Positions 27,396-36,810 of a stretch of 36,810 bases of DNA are shown here, piece after piece; within the stretch, counting starts at the first letter, position 1; every line of letters begins with the position of its first letter. A program made the translations under genes and the position numbers. The notes under the pieces were generated by a model that saw only the letters and a list, made by a program, of their open reading frames with translations, had not been told where the DNA came from and made no database searches. This DNA is from a virus: positions 1-36,810 of IMG/VR virus record IMGVR_UViG_3300046007_010263. The stretch is one strand, 5' to 3'.

Positions 27396-27923
27396 TTATT
27401 TTATATAGTTTAATATTTGTTCAACTCTTTGTTTAGGACTTCCTGTTACTGTTAGGTAATCTTTCCCTTGTACTTTCTTTATACTTGTTAAAGCTGATCT
27501 AAATTGATTATCGATTTTAGTTCTCCACTCTTCGTCTACACTTCTTACTCCATCATCTACTGATGGGAATTCTATTGGAAAGTAAATAAAATGTGTATAC
27601 TGATTCATAACTCTCATCCAAGTATCTAAGATACAGTTATATGCACTATTTGACATCTTATCCATATAAGTAGAATATACTACAAGATCTAAATAACATC
27701 TATCAAGTATTACATCTTTCGGACATAGTAGAGCTTCTAAATGGAAAGAAGAGATAGCAAGCTGTGTTTCAGAAGTACCTGCCTTATTGATGGGAAATCC
27801 GTATTTACCAACCGTTCTTGTTGATTCATTTATAAATTCATACTCTGGAATGTATTGTTTTAGTAATTCATATACAGTAGTCTTTCCTACTGATGATGCT
27901 CCTACAAGTGCTATTCTTTTCAT
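27396..27923 (-). CDS. P-loop NTPase/nucleotide kinase-like protein (AAA_28/NadR-kinase type)
   Basis: The 175-residue protein has a Walker A at residues 7-15 (GASSVGKTT) and D-V-I-L-D-R-C-Y-L-D as second strand with the D-R pair common to kinases of the NadR and thymidylate kinase sort. F-I-N-E-S-T-R-T-V lies between them, as in AAA_28 proteins. It may phosphorylate a nucleotide or an NAD precursor. The ATG at 27923, preceded by AGTT, was chosen; an in-frame ATG 27 bases upstream overlaps the formyltransferase more. It lies between queF and the formyltransferase, so a part in making the modified nucleotide is possible. Confidence 0.7.
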   Translation of the reverse strand: MKRIALVGASSVGKTTVYELLKQYIPEYEFINESTRTVGKYGFPINKAGTSETQLAISSFHLEALLCPKDVILDRCYLDLVVYSTYMDKMSNSAYNCILDTWMRVMNQYTHFIYFPIEFPSVDDGVRSVDEEWRTKIDNQFRSALTSIKKVQGKDYLTVTGSPKQRVEQILNYIK

Positions 27924-27925
27924 AA

Positions 27926-28468
27926 CTAATTTTTTAAGAAGTCTACCCAAAGACTTACTGATATACTATGTAATATATGGAATAATTCCCCAATTTCCAA
28001 CCCCGTTATTGATACCTTTCTACTACGAAGTATCTCTCCTTCATCAACTCCTTCTGTTACTCTATGAATAACACATCCTGAAGATTCTAATCCTAAATCA
28101 AAAGCTTTTTGCTGAGGATCTTTTCCTTTTAGTTCTGGATATTCAGTTATAAGTCCTGGATGTCCGTTGTAGATCTCAAATCGATTACAGATATCTGGAG
28201 GCATAATTCTCAACCATCCATGTAGAGTTACAACTGGATTGATATAAGAACCTAAAGCTAAACCTATTTCTTCTTCTGAAGGTTTATTATCTAGAAAAAT
28301 TAAATGCTTATTCTCCAAAGCCGGGTGAATCTTTCTAAGATGCTCTGGTCTTTCGTTTGTAACTATCATATCAGGCCATCTTCCTAAAAGCTTTGACACT
28401 TCTACGATCTCTGATCCTGTTTGTGAAAAAAAAAAAACTATCCAAGGTCTTTTTGGAATATTACTCAT
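27926..28468 (-). CDS. PurN-like formyltransferase, candidate preQ1 formyltransferase (DpdN-type)
   Basis: The 180-residue product has the formyltransferase core: LHGWLRIMP (84-90), Asn101-G-His103-P (YNGHPG), and H-R-V-T-E-G-V-Asp142-E-G-E. These match the catalytic Asn, His and Asp of GAR transformylase PurN, but the protein is about 30 residues shorter and the N terminus (FFFSQTGSE) is changed. From memory of the literature, phages with 7-(formylamino)methyl-7-deazaguanine in DNA carry a formyltransferase called DpdN. With queF and a dpdA-like gene close by, that role is more attractive than purine synthesis, of which no other gene is seen. Confidence 0.7.
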   Translation of the reverse strand: MSNIPKRPWIVFFFSQTGSEIVEVSKLLGRWPDMIVTNERPEHLRKIHPALENKHLIFLDNKPSEEEIGLALGSYINPVVTLHGWLRIMPPDICNRFEIYNGHPGLITEYPELKGKDPQQKAFDLGLESSGCVIHRVTEGVDEGEILRSRKVSITGLEIGELFHILHSISVSLWVDFLKN

Positions 28469-29240
28469 TTTTATTTTTTCTTTTTAAATTATTATACGTT
28501 GTCCAATCTGATTTACTTCGTTTTATATTTAGTTCTTCTATTACTTTTAATATAGGACTTTCGCTTTTAAATCCCAACTCTTTAGCAATCTGTTTACATC
28601 CTATCCACTCTTTTAAGTACCTATTCTTAATATATTCTTTCTGTTCTTGAGAAAAATTTGGATTTCTTGAACCTAGTAAGATTCCTGCTTCACGTAGGGC
28701 TTTTTGTGATTCGTGCCTATCTTTAACATCCTCTCCTGCTCTTAAAAGTACTCTTTTACAAAGGTATTTAGATAGGCCTGATTGATTAGAGACTTCTTTT
28801 AAAGTCTTTATTTTAAGACTTTTCCAAATACTTAGTAGAACTTCTTGCTGCTCTACAGATACTTTTTTATAATTTGGACTAGCTTCTCCTTTAGGAGGGG
28901 AATATTGTTCAGACCTCTTCTTAAAAATCTCTTCTTTGTTAGGGTGAGTAGATATTGTATCCCCTCCTTCTCCTCCTTTTGCAATATTAAATACCCCTTG
29001 TTCTGCTATATACATTACCTCTTTTCGATTTAACTCCTGTAAGCAGTCTATATGTTCTTCTATAATCCGAAAGGATATCCTTTTTGCATCTTTATTAAAA
29101 ATATTTTGCAGATATGGATTGTGATGCCTATTATGTAGGAGTAACGTTAAGTGCTCCTTTACTCTTTGTCTAAAAGGTCTTTCTGTTTTTCCAATATACC
29201 CTTTTCCTGTTTCATTATCAACTATCTTATAAATTATCAT
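28461..29240 (-). CDS. GIY-YIG homing endonuclease
   Basis: The 259-residue protein begins with I-Y-K-I-V-D and G-K-G-Y-I-G-K-T (GIY-YIG core), then R-Q-R-V-K-E-H-L (catalytic Arg region) and L-N-R-K-E-V-M-Y-I-A-E (metal Glu). The C-terminal part (about 130-259) holds helix-turn-helix-like repeats (KEVSNQSGLSKYLCKRVLL and CKQIAKELGFKSESPILKVI) for DNA recognition. Its stop overlaps the formyltransferase start (ATGAGTAA), and a class A motif lies seven bases before its ATG. It is a selfish free-standing element, not part of the pathway. Confidence 0.88.
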   Translation of the reverse strand: MIIYKIVDNETGKGYIGKTERPFRQRVKEHLTLLLHNRHHNPYLQNIFNKDAKRISFRIIEEHIDCLQELNRKEVMYIAEQGVFNIAKGGEGGDTISTHPNKEEIFKKRSEQYSPPKGEASPNYKKVSVEQQEVLLSIWKSLKIKTLKEVSNQSGLSKYLCKRVLLRAGEDVKDRHESQKALREAGILLGSRNPNFSQEQKEYIKNRYLKEWIGCKQIAKELGFKSESPILKVIEELNIKRSKSDWTTYNNLKRKNKNE

Positions 29241-29247
29241 ACTAATC

Positions 29248-29261
29248 TTTATTATAAATAG
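29248..29261 (-). promoter_or_regulatory. Class A motif CTATTTATAATAAA before the first GIY-YIG gene
   Basis: A full match to CTATTTATWATAAA on the minus strand, seven bases before the ATG. It also overlaps a short AGGAG-preceded reading frame of eight codons (MTIYNKD), of doubtful meaning. Confidence 0.5.
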
Positions 29262-29288
29262 TCATTTTTCTCCTAAACAGGATGTGAG

Positions 29289-29492
29289 TTATATATCTGG
29301 CTTTTCTAATATACCTATTTCGTACTGTATTATGTCATCTTCATCTACAAAGAAGAATCGTTTACCAACTCTTAGGCTGTATGCTGATTTTCTCCCTAAA
29401 TCTAAATTAATGTATGCAAATACTTCTGCATCTACTATTTCATTATCAGAATTTAAAAGCACTTTTTCTCCTATCTTATACTTTCTTTCCAT
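29289..29492 (-). CDS. Small beta-rich hypothetical protein
   Basis: The 67-residue protein has K-I-G-E-K-V-L-L-N-S-D-N and later R-V-G-K-R-F-F-F-V-D-E-D-D, suggesting a small SH3- or Tudor-like barrel. No family recognised. It overlaps the end of the dpdA-like gene by 17 bases, so it probably belongs to that operon. Confidence 0.55.
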   Translation of the reverse strand: MERKYKIGEKVLLNSDNEIVDAEVFAYINLDLGRKSAYSLRVGKRFFFVDEDDIIQYEIGILEKPDI

Positions 29493-30279
29493 TTACAAGC
29501 CAATTGAACTTATGTATATTCCCCTGAACTTTGTTTAAATCTACCTGGTCTGCAGGGTAGTTTATAAGTTCGAATAGTTTTTGAGAGTCTTTATGCCATA
29601 GTCCCATTTCTCCGTAAGATGTCCCTTTTATAGCTGCTACTACCGGATTTGATGTATCAATAGAGTATATCCATTTGTAATCCGAATAGAAAGAGAATTC
29701 CAAGGCAATCGAACATCCTAATAAATGGTGTTTCTTCTCCTCGTTTATAACACCGTCTCTCAATAGATCTCCCAGTAGCTTAACCCTTCCCATAGCCCAG
29801 CTTACCAGTTTATTAGGATGTGGAAAAGTCTGCGTATAGTACGAATAGTCAAATGAAATTGCAATCATATCTACATTTGCAATCTTATCCATATACTCAT
29901 AACAGATTTTAATCTGCTCGTAAGTCTTTCCTTGAACAACTCCTATTTTCTTTCCTGGAAGATTTTTATACTTGTTATTCCATTCTGTCATTTGCTGTAC
30001 AGTCTTCTTTGCATCTTCTAAAGCATCTGGAACTATATACCAGTCTGGTTTTAGTTCCAATACCCATCCTGCAAACTTCTCTGCATCGAAAGCTTCCTCT
30101 AATTCAAAAATAGAATTATCTAAGATAATTTCTCTACCTGCTTCTTTAGCATCTTGAAATTGCTTTAAGTACTCTGGATCTTCTTCCAGCAAATGTACCA
30201 AACAGTAATCATAGTCTGTAAGAGATTGTACTGTTTTAAAAATTGATTTTGGAGCCTCATGGGCTATACGTATCGCCAT
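29476..30279 (-). CDS. dpdA: DpdA-like 7-deazaguanine DNA transglycosylase (TGT superfamily)
   Basis: The 267-residue TIM-barrel-like protein matches the TGT family in order: D-N-S-I-F (TGT D-S-G-F-Q region with the first Asp), D-W-Y-I-V-P-D-A (TGT acid loop), K-I-G-V-V-Q-G-K-T (TGT F-G-I-V-Q-G), H-L-L-G-C-S (TGT Y-L-M-G-V-G) and Y-S-I-D-T-S-N-P (TGT nucleophile region D-x-x-x-x-T-R-N). The zinc site and C-terminal part of tRNA enzymes are absent, as in phage DpdA. It would exchange guanine in DNA for a 7-deazaguanine base. The HNH gene ends 23 bases inside its start. Confidence 0.7.
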   Translation of the reverse strand: MAIRIAHEAPKSIFKTVQSLTDYDYCLVHLLEEDPEYLKQFQDAKEAGREIILDNSIFELEEAFDAEKFAGWVLELKPDWYIVPDALEDAKKTVQQMTEWNNKYKNLPGKKIGVVQGKTYEQIKICYEYMDKIANVDMIAISFDYSYYTQTFPHPNKLVSWAMGRVKLLGDLLRDGVINEEKKHHLLGCSIALEFSFYSDYKWIYSIDTSNPVVAAIKGTSYGEMGLWHKDSQKLFELINYPADQVDLNKVQGNIHKFNWLVNGKKV

Positions 30280-30880
30280 AGATTTTTTTAATTTTATTAA
30301 CCCAGTGTTGAAGGGCTGCGTTGGTTATGTTTTTTAGTACACAAATTTCTTTCCTACTATATAACTTTAATAGTTCTTTGTATTCTTCAAGTTGACAGTT
30401 AGCTTCATGCCACCTTACGTTAAGGTCTCTTGCGGTCATTTCCCCGCACCTGCTGCACTGCACTTTAGTTTTTTCCCATTTTTTTCCAGAATTCCAATTT
30501 GGCTTACCTGTTCTTGCATTATTCTTTACTATTTTATCAATAGTTTCTTGTCGTAACTTTTTTCCTTTTTGACCAAAAGCTGCTGCTTCTCTAGCTTCTT
30601 GAAAACCTCTTGAAGAAGTTACCCTTTTTTGACCTCTTCCTACCCGTAACATAGCGTTAAATGCTAAGGCAGTTTGCCTGTCTCTATACATTCTCCATAA
30701 AAGCCAGTGAGCTAGAAAATGCTCTCTTGCTGTCAAGATTATTAGATTTTCTTTATCACCAGTTCCTCCTTTGCATCTAGGTATTATATGATGTATTTCA
30801 TAATAGTTACTGTCTTGCTTTGATCTAGATAGTAATTTTCTTGTTTCGATTAACCTATCGTAATGCCATTTATAATCCAT
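30257..30880 (-). CDS. HNH homing endonuclease with zinc finger
   Basis: The 207-residue protein has the HNH core YEIHHIIPRCKGGTGDKENL followed by T-A-R-E-H-F-L-A-H-W-L-L, then a C-x2-C...H-x3-C finger (CSRCGEMTARDLNVRWHEANC region, residues about 136-157) and a C-terminal helix-turn-helix-like stretch (KEICVLKNITNAALQHWVNK). Its last eight codons are read in another frame from the first codons of the dpdA-like gene. A class A motif stands five bases before its ATG. A short relic of the dpdA-like start lies on its upstream side. Confidence 0.87.
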   Translation of the reverse strand: MDYKWHYDRLIETRKLLSRSKQDSNYYEIHHIIPRCKGGTGDKENLIILTAREHFLAHWLLWRMYRDRQTALAFNAMLRVGRGQKRVTSSRGFQEAREAAAFGQKGKKLRQETIDKIVKNNARTGKPNWNSGKKWEKTKVQCSRCGEMTARDLNVRWHEANCQLEEYKELLKLYSRKEICVLKNITNAALQHWVNKIKKIYGDTYSP

Positions 30881-30885
30881 CTCTT

Positions 30886-30899
30886 TTTATTATAAATAG
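30886..30899 (-). promoter_or_regulatory. Class A motif CTATTTATAATAAA before the HNH gene
   Basis: Full match on the minus strand, five bases before the ATG, identical to the site before the first GIY-YIG gene. Confidence 0.5.
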
Positions 30900-30910
30900 T
30901 TTACTTTAAC

Positions 30911-30934
30911 CTATACATGAGCTATCTTAATCAT
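30911..30934 (-). pseudogene. Probable relic of the dpdA-like gene 5' end
   Basis: An eight-codon frame reads M-I-K-I-A-H-V-stop. The intact gene 600 bases further on starts M-A-I-R-I-A-H-E-A. ATA-GCT-CAT and ATA-GCC-CAT differ at one base. The ATG overlaps the stop of the preceding gene (ATGATTAA), which is just where an operon gene should start. The match is short, so it is weaker evidence than the queE relic. Confidence 0.45.
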
Positions 30935-31127
30935 TTTCTTGGTTTAAATTACTTATATCCTGAAATATACCTTCTATTTGTGAAGAAATACTCTCTACAC
31001 TGTCTTCTAGTTGTTTGTTTACAGACATTTCTAAAGCCTTATACGCTACTGTCAACGGTACTACCTCTGTCTGCAAAGTGTCGAAGTATATTTTATTCTT
31101 TTCTAAAAGATCAACTGCTTCTTGCAT
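30927..31127 (-). CDS. Small helical hypothetical protein
   Basis: The 66-residue protein is almost all helix with heptad-like hydrophobics (AVDLLEKNKIYFDTLQTEVV, then SVESISSQIEGIFQDISNL), so a coiled coil is likely. No family was recognised. It lies one base after the MazG-like gene, and its stop overlaps the relic start described at 30911-30934. Confidence 0.5.
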   Translation of the reverse strand: MQEAVDLLEKNKIYFDTLQTEVVPLTVAYKALEMSVNKQLEDSVESISSQIEGIFQDISNLNQEND

Positions 31128-31128
31128 A

Positions 31129-31653
31129 CTACTCTCCTGTTATTTGTTTTAAATAAGACTTCTGAAGTTCTTTATCTGTGAATAATTGTCTTAAGTCAGG
31201 TTTGAAATAATTAACATTCTTCATTACTTTTCTATCTCTTGTTCTATAAACGACGTAATAGTCCCCAACTTTTTCGTAATGACACTCCTCACCTTGCTCA
31301 CTCGATCTTTGAATGACAGTTGCTTTAGCGTCTTCTTCAGTTTGGCAAGCTTTCGATAAATTTGATGCTTGAACTTCTTGATATGCTGGCCATATCTTAT
31401 CCTTAAGGCCATGTAACATAGTACCGTTCCCAGTGGCAACATAAGTAATATCGCACAAAGCATCCAGAACCTCAACGATGTCTCCTCTTTCGCAAGCTTC
31501 TCTATATTCTTCAAGTTCTTCAAGGATGAAATCGTATACGAACTCCCACTCTTTTCTCTCTGGTACTGTTGGTTCATAGTTATTAGGTTTGCCCATTACG
31601 GCATTAAATTCTTCTACCTCGTCAATAAAGGGTACTTTTGGATCTGTTATCAT
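31129..31653 (-). CDS. MazG-like/PRA-PH family NTP pyrophosphohydrolase
   Basis: The 174-residue protein has the all-alpha NTP pyrophosphohydrolase core: F-I-L-E-E-L-E-E-Y-R-E-A (E-E-x-x-E) and D-I-V-E-V-L-D-A-L-C-D-I-T-Y-V (E-x-x-D). These enzymes hydrolyse NTPs or dNTPs to monophosphates. The C-terminal part (about 95-174) is an extra domain without known motif. It starts at a B7 promoter, with AGTT directly before the ATG. In a phage it may clean the nucleotide pool or alter ppGpp-linked signals. Confidence 0.8.
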   Translation of the reverse strand: MITDPKVPFIDEVEEFNAVMGKPNNYEPTVPERKEWEFVYDFILEELEEYREACERGDIVEVLDALCDITYVATGNGTMLHGLKDKIWPAYQEVQASNLSKACQTEEDAKATVIQRSSEQGEECHYEKVGDYYVVYRTRDRKVMKNVNYFKPDLRQLFTDKELQKSYLKQITGE

Positions 31654-31666
31654 AACTTTACTTTTT

Positions 31667-31699
31667 ATTTAATATAGGAAATTGCCTCCGAAGAGGCAA
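31667..31699 (-). promoter_or_regulatory. Class B promoter of the MazG-like gene, site B7
   Basis: AGTTG (TTG at 31699-31697), exactly 20 bases, then TATATTAAAT (31676-31667) on the minus strand. The spacer holds most of a stable hairpin (31682-31699), so terminator-like structure and promoter overlap. Confidence 0.6.
31682..31699 (-). terminator. 7-bp hairpin with UUCG tetraloop, terminator or processing site
   Basis: On the minus strand TTGCCTC-TTCG-GAGGCAA follows the stop of the DUF4494 gene by a few bases. UUCG loops are very stable. Only three T follow on the minus strand, while a run of seven T follows on the plus strand, so termination of the minus-strand genes may be weak. It may instead protect or process the message. 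Confidence 0.6.
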
Positions 31700-31705
31700 C
31701 TTTTT

Positions 31706-31906
31706 TTATTCTTCAATTACTTTTAGAATTTTAGATTGATTAACTCCTACTACTGAAAAGTTAGACTCTCCGTCGAATTCTTTATAGATTTTTGCTTCTG
31801 CTTCTGTAGCTGAAACTGCATCTACTAGATATAATTCTTTTACTCTTTGGATACGACCTCTGTCGTTTTCGTGCTCCAATTGCACGGTTACTTGCCAATA
31901 ATTCAT
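31706..31906 (-). CDS. DUF4494-family small protein
   Basis: The 66-residue product starts M-N-Y-W and has V-K-E-L-Y-L-V-D-A-V-S-A-T-E-A-E-A-K-I, the core of DUF4494 (usual form T-E-P-Y-L-V-D-A-L-S-F-T-E-A-E). This family is known mainly from Bacteroidota and their phages. Its role is unknown. It lies eleven bases downstream of folE and ends at the UUCG hairpin, so it probably shares the folE message. Confidence 0.75.
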   Translation of the reverse strand: MNYWQVTVQLEHENDRGRIQRVKELYLVDAVSATEAEAKIYKEFDGESNFSVVGVNQSKILKVIEE

Positions 31907-31917
31907 AGTGTTTAATT

Positions 31918-32625
31918 TTAGTTTTTATAACCTTTTGTGAACTGATAGAACTCTGCTCTTGCTGAATCTTCATCTAAGAAACATCCAGTTAACTTTGCAG
32001 TCTTCATTGAAGCTCCTTCATGCTTTACTCCTCTACAGCTTACACAATTGTGACCTGCTTCAATCATAACTGCTACTCCTAGATTACCTTCACAGATCTT
32101 ATCTACTGCATTATGAATTGCAACTGTTAATTGTTCTTGGATTGCTCCTCTACGGGCAAACTGCTCTACAATTCTATTTAGTTTTGAAAGCCCTACTACC
32201 TTTCCATCTGGTGAAGGAACATATCCAATGTGAACTTTTCCTGTAATAGTCTGGTGGTGGTGAGAGCACATTGAGGTAAGAGGAATATTTCCTTCGAATA
32301 CAATTCCATCATAACCATCTGAAGGGAATGCTGTAACTCTTGTTAATGGTTCAAATCGTCCGGCCCATAAATCGTTTACATAAGCCTTTGCAACTCTTTT
32401 AGGAGTATCAGAAGAGTTCGGATCATTACTCCAATCGCATCCTAAAGCTGAAAGGAATTCACCAAATGCTACTGCTGCTTTGTCGATAATATCCTGCTTT
32501 TCTTCTTGAGTTAACCTTGCTTCTGGTCCTTCTATTAATTGCTTTTTAGCCAATTGAGAGGAGATACCATTTGCGAATCCGGCTTGTACTAGTTCTGTAC
32601 CGTCGATAAATTTTTTACTTGACAT
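31918..32625 (-). CDS. folE: GTP cyclohydrolase I
   Basis: The 235-residue protein makes 7,8-dihydroneopterin triphosphate from GTP, the first step to 7-deazaguanines. It has T-S-M-C-S-H-H-H with Cys120 and His123 (zinc), H-I-G-Y-V-P, G-L-S-K-L-N-R-I-V, and H-N-C-V-S-C-R-G-V-K-H-E-G-A-S-M with Cys194. These are all diagnostic of FolE. It is transcribed from class B promoter B4 and followed by DUF4494. In this context it most likely feeds queD and queE rather than folate synthesis. Confidence 0.95.
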   Translation of the reverse strand: MSSKKFIDGTELVQAGFANGISSQLAKKQLIEGPEARLTQEEKQDIIDKAAVAFGEFLSALGCDWSNDPNSSDTPKRVAKAYVNDLWAGRFEPLTRVTAFPSDGYDGIVFEGNIPLTSMCSHHHQTITGKVHIGYVPSPDGKVVGLSKLNRIVEQFARRGAIQEQLTVAIHNAVDKICEGNLGVAVMIEAGHNCVSCRGVKHEGASMKTAKLTGCFLDEDSARAEFYQFTKGYKN

Positions 32626-32663
32626 ATAAGATTGTTTTTATGGAGGTTCTACGACTCCGTTTC

Positions 32664-32696
32664 TATTAATATAACACTTTTTATTTTACTATACAA
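32664..32696 (-). promoter_or_regulatory. Class B promoter of folE, site B4
   Basis: TAGTTG (TTG at 32696-32694), exactly 20 bases, then TATATTAATAGAAA (32673-32660) on the minus strand. The upstream block overlaps the stop of the phosphoribosyltransferase gene. The 14-base downstream block is identical to the groES site. The leader would be about 36 bases. Confidence 0.7.
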
Positions 32697-33092
32697 CTAC
32701 TTTTTTAAATAATCCTGTATACTTTCACTATCACTTCTCTCCCAAGGATAAACAATCCACTCTGTTCCTGTTTCCTTTGCATAAAAGTCAGGAGTAAATG
32801 ATGCTGTAGGTTTGTAGTGAAGTGTTGCTGTAAATCCTCCTACTGCTCTTTTTAGTGTTTCTCCTGTGTCGCAAATGTCATCCACTACCAAAGTATCCTT
32901 ATTTGTTTTACTTACGTAAGGTATGTTTAATTTATGTGAGATCATTACTGCTGGTATCAGTCCTCCTCTTTGTATTCCTGTAATAGATTTGATCTGTGCG
33001 CCTGATTGCTTTATTGTATTGCATAGGTCTTCAACTAAAATGTTAATATCATCCCAGCTTAAATAAACCTTGTTTCCTACTTTTAGTGCCAT
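32697..33092 (-). CDS. Phosphoribosyltransferase (xanthine/guanine type)
   Basis: A 131-residue type I phosphoribosyltransferase. The PRPP motif is V-V-D-D-I-C-D-T-G-E-T-L (residues about 68-79), the pyrophosphate loop I-Q-R-G-G-L-I-P lies near 41-48, and W-I-V-Y-P-W-E follows as in Gpt-like enzymes. It could salvage guanine or xanthine, or act on a 7-deazapurine base; the latter is only suggested by context. It overlaps the next gene upstream by one base and its end carries part of promoter B4. Confidence 0.85.
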   Translation of the reverse strand: MALKVGNKVYLSWDDINILVEDLCNTIKQSGAQIKSITGIQRGGLIPAVMISHKLNIPYVSKTNKDTLVVDDICDTGETLKRAVGGFTATLHYKPTASFTPDFYAKETGTEWIVYPWERSDSESIQDYLKK

Positions 33093-33373
33093 TATATTCT
33101 CGCTACTGTTATACCTTCTGCTCCTACAATTTTCATCTGCGAAATCATATCATCTGTTGGTTGTTGTGGATCTGTTTCCTCCAACACGTAGTTGATAAGT
33201 TCATCTATTGATACCTTGTCTTTGAATCCTGTCTTACCTGAGTCGCTTACTATTAATTCTAAATCTCCCTCTTTGGTTAATTTATAGTCCCAAATATAAA
33301 GCCCATCTGCTTTTGGGTAACTTTTTGAAAGCTCTCTGTCTCCTGCTAAATCTATTAAATCTTTTAATGTCAT
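33092..33373 (-). CDS. Small hypothetical protein
   Basis: The 93-residue protein was not recognised. It starts with a helix (TLKDLIDLAGDRELSK), has strands around G-L-Y-I-W-D-Y-K-L and L-E-L-I-V-S-D-S and a helix with S-I-D-E-L-I-N-Y-V-L-E. AGTT stands directly before the ATG. It is coupled by a one-base overlap to the phosphoribosyltransferase gene. Confidence 0.6.
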   Translation of the reverse strand: MTLKDLIDLAGDRELSKSYPKADGLYIWDYKLTKEGDLELIVSDSGKTGFKDKVSIDELINYVLEETDPQQPTDDMISQMKIVGAEGITVARI

Positions 33374-33388
33374 AACTGTGTTTTTTAT

Positions 33389-33580
33389 TTACTTAATTGA
33401 ATACTTGGTTTTACCGTCTGGTGATTGTGCTGCTATTTCTCCGTTTGCTAGAACTGTCAGTTGTAGGAAGTAGGTTGTTAGTAGTAGGTGCTTTACTTGT
33501 GCTGCTTCTATCTGTCCTTTCTTCCATAATGTATGAAGTACTGTCAATGTTTCAAACTGTGTTGCGTTTCTTACTGCCAT
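33389..33580 (-). CDS. Small hypothetical protein
   Basis: A 63-residue protein with an N-terminal helical part (TVLHTLWKKGQIEAAQVKHL) and a C-terminal strand pair with A-N-G-E-I-A-A-Q-S-P-D-G-K-T-K-Y. It could bind nucleic acid but has no recognised family. It fits the operon spacing (7 and 15 bases to its neighbours). Confidence 0.5.
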   Translation of the reverse strand: MAVRNATQFETLTVLHTLWKKGQIEAAQVKHLLLTTYFLQLTVLANGEIAAQSPDGKTKYSIK

Positions 33581-33587
33581 TTTACTT

Positions 33588-34172
33588 TTACTTTACTACC
33601 ATTCTAACCATACATGCTCTACTTGCCTCAGGCATATATTCATCTGGGGTTGATAAGACTTTCTCAAGTTTATCACGAAGAGATTGTTTCATCATTTCGT
33701 CTTGATACTCTTTGCTGCCAATATCTTGTGGAAATGTAGGATTGAAAGTAAGAGTGATTGTTCGGTAAGGTTTAAAATTTTCAGGATTATATATTAAAGG
33801 TCCAAATGTGCATCCCTCTTTTACCGGTTTGAAAATCACTGTAGGGTCGTACATTTTTGGAGAAAACATAATTTGGTAAACATATGCGGTTTTTCCTTCA
33901 TATGTTGGGCCTTCATCTAATAGCTTATGTGTGGACGTTTGAAAAGCCTTACCTGGTTCATTAGCTCCCCCAGTGTGAGTTATCCATTTTACTTCTTTAA
34001 AATGGAAATGTTCTTTTAAAATCCCTTCTGCAAGTTGTCTCTGCACTTTAGACATTTCAACTACGGCAGTAGGTTCTACTACAGTTGGGGATGAATAGGT
34101 AGCAAAGTGGAGTCTGTCGTCTGTGATAGGACCTAGAAGGTCAATAAATTTTTGTGTGATTTGATTTGTCAT
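33588..34172 (-). CDS. Hypothetical protein in the queuosine-type operon
   Basis: The 194-residue protein starts MTNQITQKFIDLLGP and was not recognised. It has strands at R-L-H-F-A-T-Y, Y-V-Y-Q-I-M-F-S and R-T-I-T-L-T-F-N-P-T-F and a conserved-looking G-C-T-F-G-P-L-I. The ATG at 34172 gives a gap of four bases to queE; an ATG 33 bases upstream would overlap queE by 29 bases. Its position directly downstream of queE makes a role in nucleotide modification possible, but the sequence gives no proof. Confidence 0.6.
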   Translation of the reverse strand: MTNQITQKFIDLLGPITDDRLHFATYSSPTVVEPTAVVEMSKVQRQLAEGILKEHFHFKEVKWITHTGGANEPGKAFQTSTHKLLDEGPTYEGKTAYVYQIMFSPKMYDPTVIFKPVKEGCTFGPLIYNPENFKPYRTITLTFNPTFPQDIGSKEYQDEMMKQSLRDKLEKVLSTPDEYMPEASRACMVRMVVK

Positions 34173-34176
34173 AGTA

Positions 34177-34959
34177 TTATACTTCTCTTTGGTCTTCAAA
34201 TGCAATGATGTGAGGTCTCCAAGTTAATCTGTAACCATTATCTCTAACCCAATCAAACATTTTAGGATATGATTTGAATAAAGCCTCTCTTGAATCTCCT
34301 GCTGGCATGAACCATACTTTATCTTGTGGTATGTCTAATATACTAATACATGCCATAATCTCTTCCAATGCTTCTTGATCCTCTCCGTCCCATACTGGTT
34401 TTAAGTGATAGTCAGAATGATAAGCAATTGATTTGGACATTGCATCATAATTAAGTCTTAGCTTGTTGTGTTGCTTAACCATTTTATCGTCGACCACATC
34501 TCCTTGAGGGGTGAGAATACCAACTCTAGGGACAGAGTTAGAAAACTTCGGAGAAATCGATAACAAGTTGATTGGGTAATCTGTTTCAAGAAAATGACTT
34601 CCTTCGGTCTCAATTGTAATGAAAATATTTCTTTCATGTGCAAAATGTGTTAATTCGTTTACTAATGCTGGATGCATTGTTGGTGATCCTCCAGTTAACA
34701 TCATCTCTGTGATGTGAGGATTCTTGTCGTATGCTTCAATTATATTCTGGAATGAATATTTTCCTTTCTCTGGATGGATTGATGTGTATGGACTATCACA
34801 CCAGCCTCCTTCGTTGAACCAGCAGCGGTGGGTACAGCCACTTGTTCGAATTACAATTGTAGGATATCCTGCTCTACTCCCCTCACTTTGGACTGCGGAA
34901 TAAACTTCAACTATTGGTAAGATTTTATTATAATCTTCAATTCTTTTTAACTTACTCAT
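34177..34959 (-). CDS. queE: 7-carboxy-7-deazaguanine synthase (radical SAM)
   Basis: The 260-residue enzyme turns 6-carboxytetrahydropterin into 7-carboxy-7-deazaguanine. It has Q-S-E-G-S-R-A-G (24-31), R-T-S-G-C, cluster cysteines Cys42, Cys46 and Cys54, W-C-D-S-P-Y-T, and M-L-T-G-G-S-P-T. The cysteine motif is C-x3-C-x7-C, five residues longer than the usual C-x3-C-x2-C. The first 30 codons are a second copy of those in the relic at 36071-36166. The GIY-YIG gene ends in its start (ATGA overlap), which shows that the present start belongs to the endonuclease-linked version. Confidence 0.9.
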   Translation of the reverse strand: MSKLKRIEDYNKILPIVEVYSAVQSEGSRAGYPTIVIRTSGCTHRCWFNEGGWCDSPYTSIHPEKGKYSFQNIIEAYDKNPHITEMMLTGGSPTMHPALVNELTHFAHERNIFITIETEGSHFLETDYPINLLSISPKFSNSVPRVGILTPQGDVVDDKMVKQHNKLRLNYDAMSKSIAYHSDYHLKPVWDGEDQEALEEIMACISILDIPQDKVWFMPAGDSREALFKSYPKMFDWVRDNGYRLTWRPHIIAFEDQREV

Positions 34960-35768
34960 ATTACGTTTTCTTTTTTTAACATTAATCTTATTTGTGTATC
35001 ACTTGTATTAAAAATTCTTCCAATTTCTGTAAAGCCTTTGTTCTGTAAATATAATGATTTTATTTCAGAAATCCTATCCCAAAGGTCATTTCTTTTAGGC
35101 TTTTTTAAATCTGCTCTACATTTTTGAGATTCTGAAGGAGATCTTTTTTCTACATTATTCTGTTTTAAAATTCTACCTATTACCTGAGGATGACATTGAT
35201 ATTCTTTTGCTAGTATGTGAATACCCTCTCCTGCTTTATACCTCTCTACAATTTGTTCAGAATTAGTATTTACATCTTTTCTCATATTCCCTGATGGATA
35301 TTTTATTTTAGATTGTTTATTTGATTCAGATTGATTTCTTCTTATATCTGAAGGGATAATTCTGTTTCGTATAACTCCTGCGTCTATTTTATATTCTTGA
35401 GCAATTTCCTCTGCACTCTCTCCTTTTTTATATCTTTCGACAATTAAATCAACATCTTTATAAACATCTAATCTTAGTGAAGCTAAAGCTACCCCAGAAG
35501 GTCCTCCTGTTCTTTGATTGTATGTATTAGGATTTATTACATACAAATAATTTACAAGTTCTATCTCTCTTAAATCTGCTTCTTCTCTAGTATTAAAATA
35601 CTCTAAAATTTCTTTCTTAAAGTTTTTAATTCCTACTTTTTTTATCTCTTCTTTTAAAATTAAAGAAGAACTCATATAAGAATCTTCTTCAGGAAATGGA
35701 TGCGATCTTACTCCAATATATTCTCGATTGTTTAGTAAATTTGTAATTTTGTAAATGTAATGTTTCAT
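34956..35768 (-). CDS. GIY-YIG homing endonuclease (Seg-like) with repeated HTH modules
   Basis: The 270-residue protein begins Y-I-Y-K-I-T-N and R-E-Y-I-G-V (GIY-YIG), with E-A-D-L-R-E-I-E-L-V-N-Y (metal Glu). Residues about 105-270 hold three similar helix-turn-helix-like units: V-E-R-Y-K-K-G-E-S-A-E-E-I-A-Q-E-Y-K, V-E-R-Y-K-A-G-E-G-I-H-I-L-A-K-E-Y-Q, and I-K-S-L-Y-L-Q-N-K-G-F-T-E-I-G. They probably read the target site. Its last codons overlap the queE start by four bases, and a class A motif lies eight bases before its ATG. Confidence 0.88.
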   Translation of the reverse strand: MKHYIYKITNLLNNREYIGVRSHPFPEEDSYMSSSLILKEEIKKVGIKNFKKEILEYFNTREEADLREIELVNYLYVINPNTYNQRTGGPSGVALASLRLDVYKDVDLIVERYKKGESAEEIAQEYKIDAGVIRNRIIPSDIRRNQSESNKQSKIKYPSGNMRKDVNTNSEQIVERYKAGEGIHILAKEYQCHPQVIGRILKQNNVEKRSPSESQKCRADLKKPKRNDLWDRISEIKSLYLQNKGFTEIGRIFNTSDTQIRLMLKKENVI

Positions 35769-35776
35769 AATATTTG

Positions 35777-35790
35777 TTTATTATAAATAT
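35777..35790 (-). promoter_or_regulatory. Class A motif variant (ATATTTATAATAAA) before the second GIY-YIG gene
   Basis: Matches CTATTTATWATAAA at 13 of 14 positions on the minus strand, eight bases before the ATG. Confidence 0.45.
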
Positions 35791-35829
35791 CACAAAATTA
35801 TAAAAACATCGATGTTATTTTGGATTATT

Positions 35830-36066
35830 TTAGAGTTTTTGTATTAAAGCATCTAAAATATGTTCTGATGTTTTTCCAAAATATGTAATACTATTATCGT
35901 AATTTTGCTGAATTGCTGAATCTCCTAATCTGATTAATCTAATTGCTCCTCCGTCTGTTATGGAAGCTTTAATTCCTTTATATGCCCAACTCTCTAAATT
36001 ATCAGATAACTTTCCTTTTTCTTTTATAATGTTGAATACTATTAAAAATTTTTGCTGTTCTGTCAT
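35830..36066 (-). CDS. Small hypothetical protein between the queE relic and the endonuclease gene
   Basis: The 78-residue protein (MTEQQKFLIVFNIIKEKGKL at the start) was not recognised. It has helices at both ends and a central G-G-A-I-R-L-I-R-L-G-D-S strand. It starts four bases after the relic of queE stops and lies before the GIY-YIG gene, so it seems to have come with the same insertion, though an older neighbour gene is possible. Confidence 0.5.
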   Translation of the reverse strand: MTEQQKFLIVFNIIKEKGKLSDNLESWAYKGIKASITDGGAIRLIRLGDSAIQQNYDNSITYFGKTSEHILDALIQKL

Positions 36067-36070
36067 AATG

Positions 36071-36166
36071 TTATTTATTTTTAAATGCTCTACTTCCTTC
36101 TGATTGTACTGCTGTATAAAGCTCTACAATGGGAAGTGTTTTGTTATAATCTTCTATTCTTTTCAT
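36071..36166 (-). pseudogene. Relic of the queE 5' end (31 codons)
   Basis: The frame starts M-K-R-I-E-D-Y-N-K-T-L-P-I-V and goes on through E-L-Y-T-A-V-Q-S-E-G-S-R-A, then F-K-N-K-stop. Intact queE has K-R-I-E-D-Y-N-K-I-L-P-I-V-E-V-Y-S-A-V-Q-S-E-G-S-R-A-G. Over these 26 codons 23 residues are the same, but 19 of 78 bases differ, mostly at synonymous sites. The ATG lies one base after the stop of the preceding gene, the same spacing as between the two genes before it. It is therefore the original gene start, cut off at codon 27. Confidence 0.85.
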
Positions 36167-36167
36167 C

Positions 36168-36362
36168 TTAATATAAATTGTATTGACAATATTTTATGTA
36201 AAATTCAGTTCTTCCTATTTCTTGTAGCTCTTCTACATACTCCCATACTTCATCGACATACTGTTCTTTTCCATATAAATCATCTCCGTACTTTAAAGTT
36301 TCAAAGTCCCATCTTTTATCGAATGCTTTTGTTGCTAAGTATATAATTTCAGTTTCTGTCAT
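36168..36362 (-). CDS. Small hypothetical protein
   Basis: A 64-residue protein starting MTETEIIYLATKAFDKRWDF. It is acidic and aromatic-rich (E-Q-Y-V-D-E-V-W-E-Y-V-E-E-L). The ATG at 36362 gives one base of spacing to the gene before; an in-frame ATG at 36377 or 36395 would overlap it. No family recognised. Confidence 0.55.
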   Translation of the reverse strand: MTETEIIYLATKAFDKRWDFETLKYGDDLYGKEQYVDEVWEYVEELQEIGRTEFYIKYCQYNLY

Positions 36363-36363
36363 C

Positions 36364-36573
36364 TTATCCGATATCATAATGTTCCCAAATAGCATCTATA
36401 TGCTCTCTTAATTTATTCATAGCAAAGGATGCTTCGTCACATAACTTTACTAGTTCTGGGTCTTCTTCTCCGTCGTATCCGTAATGCTCTACCCAATATC
36501 CAAATCCTTCGTTATCAATTTCTCCGAATAATTGTTCTGCTTCTTCTTGTGATAGTTTAATTTCTTTGCTCAT
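36364..36573 (-). CDS. Small acidic hypothetical protein
   Basis: The 69-residue protein is acidic (MSKEIKLSQEEAEQLFGEID, later W-V-E-H-Y-G-Y-D-G-E-E-D) and probably helical. Not recognised. It lies between queD and the queE relic, so it is part of that operon. A 71-base gap without clear features separates it from queD. Confidence 0.55.
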   Translation of the reverse strand: MSKEIKLSQEEAEQLFGEIDNEGFGYWVEHYGYDGEEDPELVKLCDEASFAMNKLREHIDAIWEHYDIG

Positions 36574-36644
36574 AATTTTATTTATTAATTATTATCAATT
36601 CGTAACTAACCTCTCCTATAAAGGTTGCTGTTGTTGTCCAATAA

Positions 36645-36810
36645 TTACTCTCCATAAGATGCTGAGTTTCTTTCATGTTCGTAGACTTCTACTTTAGTAG
36701 CTCTCACTCTTCCGTCTGTTTCTTCAAGTAAGAATGTATTGATCTTTCCATATAAGTACTCTGCAAATCTTTCACATCCTACTGATGGAAGTATTCTTAA
36801 TTGAATATCT
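36645..36810 (-). CDS. queD: 6-carboxytetrahydropterin synthase QueD, C-terminal fragment
   Basis: The visible 54 codons run to the TAA at 36645 and the gene continues beyond the window. The end shows P-S-V-G-C-E-R-F-A-E-Y-L-Y-G-K-I (QueD pattern P-T-x-E-x-x-A-x-x-L) and K-V-E-V-Y-E-H-E-R-N-S-A-S-Y (QueD V-x-V-x-E-T-x-x-x-x-A-x-Y). QueD makes 6-carboxy-tetrahydropterin, the substrate of QueE. Its place upstream of queE supports the assignment, though the zinc-binding half is not visible. Confidence 0.75.
   Translation of the reverse strand, partial: DIQLRILPSVGCERFAEYLYGKINTFLLEETDGRVRATKVEVYEHERNSASYGE

Follow-up and report, generated by a model that had tools for sequence, protein, structure and literature searches.

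A GIY-YIG endonuclease cassette with a foreign replacement 5' end in the queE gene of an uncultured virus

Described systems and the queE locus

Mobile endonuclease ORFs that bring with them a foreign C-terminal end of their target gene are known from fungal mitochondria, in Allomyces atp6 and in Glomus atp6, atp9, cox2 and nad3 (PMC3630166). In these elements the endonuclease ORF travels with a diverged terminal copy of the target, which is fused to the resident gene, and the native terminal part is left behind as a relic matching close relatives (PMC3630166). The free-standing GIY-YIG genes of phage T4 (SegA–SegG) lie beside their presumed targets, are sporadically distributed and are associated with target co-conversion; they sit between intact genes, their cut sites are distant, and no truncated copy of a target is described there (PMC2988022). 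In phage Aeh1 a homing endonuclease is found inside the conserved nrdA gene (reviewed in PMC2988022), and group I introns with I-TevI are likewise inserted at conserved coding sites.

The stretch of DNA analysed here (the window) is a 36.8-kb viral record; of the annotated phages, Flavobacterium phage immuto and Cellulophaga phage phiST are its nearest relatives. Its queE gene shares both features of the fungal elements, a foreign terminus joined in frame and a native relic. However, in the fungal ORFs it is the 3' end that is replaced and the relic lies downstream, whereas at queE it is the 5' end, the relic lies upstream, the genome is that of a phage, and the stop codon of the nuclease gene shares bases with the new start codon. 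We therefore regard the phage cassette as working like the fungal mitochondrial elements in mirror image, at the 5' end, and do not class it as one of them because the 3'-end/mitochondrial criterion is unmet. An earlier reading made without database searches (the sequence-only reading) had drawn the analogy with Allomyces atp6, which holds in this mirrored sense only, 3' there and 5' here (PMC3630166). The free-standing GIY-YIG gene beside a presumed target, its sporadic distribution and target co-conversion are shared with the T4 seg genes, but unlike these the queE cassette is inserted inside its target and carries a replacement terminus. The position inside a conserved gene recalls Aeh1, although NrdA of that phage works as two pieces (PMC2988022) whereas here queE (and dpdA, see below) is restored whole, leaving over a fragment that seems not to be needed. 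The cassette has its conserved coding insertion site and its I-TevI-like catalytic fold in common with the group I introns, but there is no match to an intron RNA family and splicing is not needed. The sequence-only reading knew of no described phage case with a replacement 5' end, and we found none either in the open-access literature searched, an absence that is not proof.

Relic, nuclease and mosaic queE in the window

In immuto queE sits in a 7-deazaguanine DNA-modification cluster with queD, folE, queF and dpdA. In the window the gene order on the minus strand, to which all coordinates of the queE locus refer, is queD, small genes, ORF75, a 31-codon frame, ORF78, a GIY-YIG gene (270 aa) and a whole queE. 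The complete queE (34177..34959) encodes a 7-carboxy-7-deazaguanine synthase-like radical SAM protein (PHROG QueE-like, 8e-53; TIGR QueE models also match, but below their cutoffs), and the TGA stop of the GIY-YIG gene (34956..35768) falls inside the ATGA at its start codon. The 31-codon frame (relic ORF, 36071-36166) matches QueE from its N terminus over 27 codons, after which it reads FKNK-stop. It is the second queE match within the same record (E=3.5e-10), so its likeness to queE is not due to chance. When the relic start codon is skipped, 23 residues are identical over 26 codons and 19/78 bases differ, as the sequence-only reading had counted; counted from the relic start codon the figures are 22/26 residues and 21/78 bases, and most changes are silent. 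The element positions and strand layout given in that reading all held. It had named an assembly error as one outcome that would refute it; a separate 167-kb contig (L001) is identical to the window over 8,628 bases spanning the structure, so that there is no obvious error of this kind, and like layouts are present in unrelated contigs.

The origin of the upstream fragment was resolved by comparison with two uninterrupted relatives (L022 and L024), in which an intact queE begins one base after ORF75 and its first 27 codons are the relic; in the window the relic lies directly behind ORF75, as queE does in these relatives. Over 151 bases (the tail of ORF75, the relic and six bases past the junction, these being the last six compared) L022/L024 match 146 and other relatives 88-111, and the relic and upstream gene tail are identical base for base with the uninterrupted relatives up to the junction, which falls between 36086 and 36085. 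After AGAGCA the native alleles continue GGTTATCC and the window continues TTTAAAAA. The relic proper (36086..36166) corresponds to native-allele codons 1-27 (native codon 27 being codon 30 in the numbering of the window's full-length queE), and the remainder of the frame (36071..36085, FKNK-stop) is a non-queE tail at the place of GGTTATCC. The match to L022/L024 together with the change at the junction therefore identifies the upstream fragment as the original 5' end of queE, cut at codon 27. The relic is thus the native queE start, and the emphasis of the sequence-only reading is corrected accordingly: the upstream fragment is the original and the downstream 5' end the newcomer. That reading had proposed a search of related genomes for queE with and without the insertion, and relatives of both kinds, uninterrupted (L022, L024) and cassette-bearing, were found.

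The downstream gene is a mosaic. Against nuclease-free alleles of the L022/immuto type the window queE shows about 60-75% base identity over most of codons 1-80 and then 90-98%, and against L045/L046, which carry the same nuclease, it shows 97-100% over codons 1-40 and lower identity afterwards. Breakpoint tests (GIY-carrying or L002-type against native alleles) placed the switch at codon 77-93 (permutation p<1e-4, at its floor of 5e-5); left of it 52-72 informative sites agree with GIY-carrying or L002-type alleles as against 2-8 with native ones, and past it the gene is native-like. The replacement 5' end (34690..34959, codons 1 to ~77-92) is foreign and recoded, and this foreign tract is far longer than the stretch duplicated in the relic. 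Co-conversion of flanking queE sequence is supported by the mosaic breakpoint, which is an inference from comparison and not from a cross. The same nuclease and 5' end (95-100% nucleotide identity over codons 1-40) occur in the other backbones L003 and L045/L046; the left edge of the cassette (35769..35831) is common to L001, L003, L045 and L046 with unrelated DNA upstream, and L003 and L045/L046 have edge, nuclease and 5' end in common next to unrelated upstream genes, from which it follows that nuclease and 5' end move as a block. The claim of the sequence-only reading that a replacement 5' end from a diverged queE arrived with the endonuclease is therefore supported by the native relic, the mosaic breakpoint and independent parallels.

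Some alleles are recorded here as observations in their own right. L002 (5799-6111) has an uninterrupted, nuclease-free ORF75-queE arrangement whose queE does not differ from the GIY-associated recoded type over codons 21-40; this could be a resistant form spread by co-conversion or one left after loss of the nuclease. In L045 (3010-3822) the GIY-YIG frame looks broken (two ORFs) beside an intact queE, while the near-identical L046 is intact, so that either a decaying nuclease or a sequencing error is conceivable. In L018 (6001-6117) queE has an in-frame stop at the Gln of AVQSEG, reflecting a sequencing error or an inactivated gene.

The 270-aa nuclease matches Pfam SegE_GIY-YIG (34.7 bits, cutoff 25) together with helix-turn-helix families, the GIY-YIG domain being followed by helix-turn-helix DNA-binding repeats, and a PHROG homing endonuclease family (3e-30). 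A structure model built from 18 homologues (mean pLDDT 81) resembles the I-TevI catalytic domain (Foldseek probability 1.00, TM 0.66 on the target, E-value 8e-3), the weak E-value reflecting a common part of only about 95 of the 270 residues. Y6, Y17, G19, R21, E68 and N84, which are GIY-YIG motif positions, are invariant across the 18 homologues. A GIY-YIG catalytic domain is thus predicted by the model and the profile matches, and cleavage is inferred. The nuclease is sporadic beside queE, being present in L003, L045, L032, L101 and others and absent from L022, L024 and immuto. In bacterial genomes only three weak GIY-domain matches were found, and among cultured phages no match covers 80% of the nuclease.

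ORF78 (35830..36066, 78 aa) lies between the relic and the nuclease cassette. It has relatives among viral contigs only in the same population, apart from these just a sub-threshold DUF3081 match, and it is missing from the cassettes of L003, L045 and L101. A role as a constant part of the element was for these reasons rejected, and ORF78 is likely to be a passenger. The cassette's left edge contains the promoter-like TATTTATAATA (35779-35789), a motif over-represented in the window: TATTTATWATA occurs seven times (16869, 16873, 18772, 23582, 29250, 30888 and 35779) where 0.38 are expected, an 18-fold excess, with one copy shortly upstream of each of the three endonuclease genes (28461-29240, 30257-30880 and 34956-35768). 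AT-rich boxes of similar kind precede most other cassettes. The palindrome ACATCGATGT at the cassette edge was considered as a terminator and rejected, as it folds no better than shuffled sequences (z 0.68, -0.53).

Recurrence at other queE loci and at dpdA

A profile scan for the nuclease showed that many contigs have a full-length homologue (33-51% identity) immediately in front of queE, among them contigs with a second, very different queE family that has the motif VQGEG, and truncated native starts were then searched for upstream of each nuclease-associated queE. Ten distinct queE loci, the window included, have a truncated native start followed by an endonuclease abutting a complete recoded queE. 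The relics break after ...SRQGM in L101, ...SRAGYP in L059 (where the nuclease is a small zinc-finger GIY-YIG protein), ...FYSVQ in L087 and L104, ...FYSVQG in L108, ...SDFY in L102 and L111, ...LYSI in L110, and ...FYSI in L222 (with a DUF559/Vsr-like nuclease of 231 aa). The ten loci represent two queE families and three types of nuclease (large GIY-YIG, zinc-finger GIY-YIG and DUF559/Vsr-like), and the breaks cluster within about 13 codons around the V-Q-G/S-E-G motif. The layout is therefore a recurrent class and goes beyond the single case of the sequence-only reading.

Relics were present at 10/19 distinct endonuclease-carrying queE loci and at 0/179 without an endonuclease. The latter figure derives from 262 queE matches, among which 180 distinct candidates had no nuclease gene and at least 900 bases of upstream sequence; one of these (L033) proved on inspection of the sequence to have an HNH-like gene before queE and was moved, leaving 179 and bringing the endonuclease set to 19. 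A Fisher test made before this move (10/18 against 0/210, the latter a rounded nuclease-free count) gave p=5e-13, which is only indicative since the loci are related by descent and the relic table carries no phylogenetic correction. Relics in genomes without any endonuclease gene had been named as a finding that would refute the sequence-only reading, and there was none among the 179 distinct endonuclease-free loci. Loci of the same nuclease family without a relic do occur (L003, L045, L032, L086 and L106), and the absence of a relic from about half of the endonuclease-carrying loci may mean that it is not obligatory or that it is soon lost. At some type-2 or distant loci the replacement 5' end is as close as the relic, or closer, to some nuclease-free allele, so that only in the window and at a few further loci is the direction of transfer, itself inferred from sequence alone, clear. 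Every cassette-bearing sequence found is an uncultured viral contig.

The recoding concentrates on the conserved motif. In the first queE family the Ser of QSEG is AGT or AGC in 8/8 nuclease-associated alleles and TCN in 94/114 nuclease-free ones; in the second the first Gly of QGEG is GGT in 0/11 nuclease-associated and 38/63 nuclease-free alleles (neither contrast is corrected for phylogeny). L032, with a nuclease only 36% identical, has a 38-base recoded tract in common with the window, and at all ten loci the relic is 33-78% identical to its own replacement. We infer that the recoding is compatible with a role in withstanding cleavage, in preventing deletion between the repeats, or in both, roles that sequence alone cannot separate.

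Several further arrangements were observed. L087, L104 and L108 have pairs of small genes between relic and nuclease; among these a 91-aa passenger ORF is 85% identical between L087 (2534-2806) and L108 (3421-3693), the two nucleases being only about 65% identical, which may hint at exchange of the nuclease within one insertion. At the cassette edge of L104 and L108 a short CTTCTAT or CTTCTGT remnant tentatively resembles a first, older relic. In L113, L114, L115, L116 and L120 a sister clade of the GIY-YIG nuclease lies directly downstream of queC; a mirror case with replacement of the queC 3' end was rejected for these contigs, as no queC 3' relic was found downstream.

A second example of the queE-type layout is present in the window itself, again on the minus strand, at 29476-30934, where an HNH gene is combined with dpdA. 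The complete dpdA (29476..30279, DNA guanine transglycosylase; the homologue in immuto is annotated DpdA) is preceded by an HNH homing endonuclease gene (30257..30880, PHROG 655 homing endonuclease, 2e-38) whose stop lies inside the dpdA start, with a TATTTATWATA match at 30888-30898. Just upstream of the HNH gene is the native dpdA start ATGATTAAGATAGCTCATG (MIKIAH, 30916..30934, the ORF running to a stop at 30911), which overlaps the end of a small gene that also precedes dpdA in immuto and relatives; uninterrupted dpdA with the relic's start and upstream gene is found in immuto and L341-L360. Codons 1-40 of the window dpdA (30160..30279) show 54-78% nucleotide identity to native alleles, and from codon 41 on identity to the closest relatives is 92-100%, the drop marking a foreign replacement 5' end of about 40 codons. 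In L363/L364, too, dpdA has an HNH gene of this type in front of it. Of the three endonuclease genes in the window, the remaining one (GIY-YIG, 28461-29240, minus strand) overlaps the start of a phosphoribosylglycinamide formyltransferase-like gene, and neither a relic nor 5' divergence was found at this overlapped gene.

Proposed mechanism, rival explanations and significance

Between relic and queE body there is likely to be a free-standing homing cassette, an intron-like insertion whose target is kept alive by a recoded 5' end; cleavage, resistance and homing are inferred. Its parts would be a promoter, the GIY-YIG endonuclease and the recoded queE 5' end, with a start codon overlapping the nuclease stop. 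The endonuclease would cut uninterrupted queE in the conserved QSEGSRAGYP region and repair from a cassette-bearing genome would copy the nuclease and the replacement 5' end, with co-conversion extending into the gene (the mosaic is shown, the repair inferred) and the recipient's own 5' end, which is the part seen as the relic, staying upstream. The recoded site would probably resist the nuclease and would also be too diverged from the relic for the two to recombine and thereby excise the cassette; the relic could become a left homology arm in subsequent rounds. Where passengers lie between relic and nuclease (ORF78; L087, L104 and L108) the left join was perhaps made by end-joining into the donor flank. 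It is shown that the target gene is whole without splicing, because the inserted copy restarts from an ATG, that the block moves between backbones and that the layout recurs.

The rival that deserves most attention is ordinary intronless homing of an intergenic nuclease, in which part of queE would have been exchanged by co-conversion, with the relic as the accidental scar of a single sloppy repair. T4 seg genes do home with co-conversion into the adjacent target gene (PMC2988022), and no relic is found at several loci with a nuclease of the same family (L003, L045, L032, L086 and L106). However, T4 cut sites are hundreds to thousands of bases distant (PMC2988022), and scars would be expected to be rare and variable in position, whereas relics occur at 10 distinct loci with three nuclease types, are all truncated within about 13 codons, and are seen again at dpdA; we consider this rival unlikely. 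Still less credible is the view that the 5' end of queE was duplicated locally in tandem, and that the copies were later split by insertion of the nuclease and diverged in place. This would account for the presence of two like-oriented copies of one 5' end within a single genome, but sister phages have the relic sequence unchanged, whereas the copy downstream is of a different lineage and becomes native-type only from codon 77-92, and at none of the ten loci does identity between relic and replacement leave the range 33-78%. An assembly or binning artefact is just as improbable; in its favour all cassette-bearing sequences found are uncultured viral contigs, but the coding frames are intact, the separate 167-kb contig has the same structure and similar architecture is seen in many contigs with different sequences.

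A further possibility is a variant of the homing-cassette explanation and not an alternative to it, namely that the recoding serves only to block recombination and deletion between relic and replacement, or simply mirrors the donor lineage. This remains possible, since divergence between relic and replacement is universal and L002 has the recoded tract without any nuclease; against it, the codon shifts of different lineages fall mainly on one and the same motif, and L032 has the window's 38-base tract in spite of a nuclease only 36% identical. A group I or II intron was rejected: as the sequence-only reading had argued, the downstream queE is complete, and in addition a search of 27500-36810 against Rfam gave no match up to E=1. 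Nor is this a gene in pieces, because queE is complete downstream and its 5' part is present twice.

The homing-cassette reading can be put more boldly, in a form that we would neither press nor dismiss. Promoter, nuclease and replacement 5' end would together be a general splicing-free counterpart of mobile introns in phages, having arisen repeatedly with GIY-YIG, zinc-finger GIY-YIG, HNH and DUF559/Vsr-like folds; such elements would target the first conserved motif of DNA-modification genes (queE and dpdA), use the relic as left homology arm and mobilize passengers lying between relic and nuclease.

A recoded spare start would be a way for a homing endonuclease to occupy a conserved coding site without an intron or intein. 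It would explain nuclease genes that abut or overlap the starts of phage genes, small orphan start-like ORFs and abruptly mosaic 5' ends, and, with relic breakpoints and recoded motifs as pointers to the cut site, target sites may be read off by comparing sequences. As both cases in the window lie in the 7-deazaguanine DNA-modification cluster, such elements can reshuffle anti-restriction genes.
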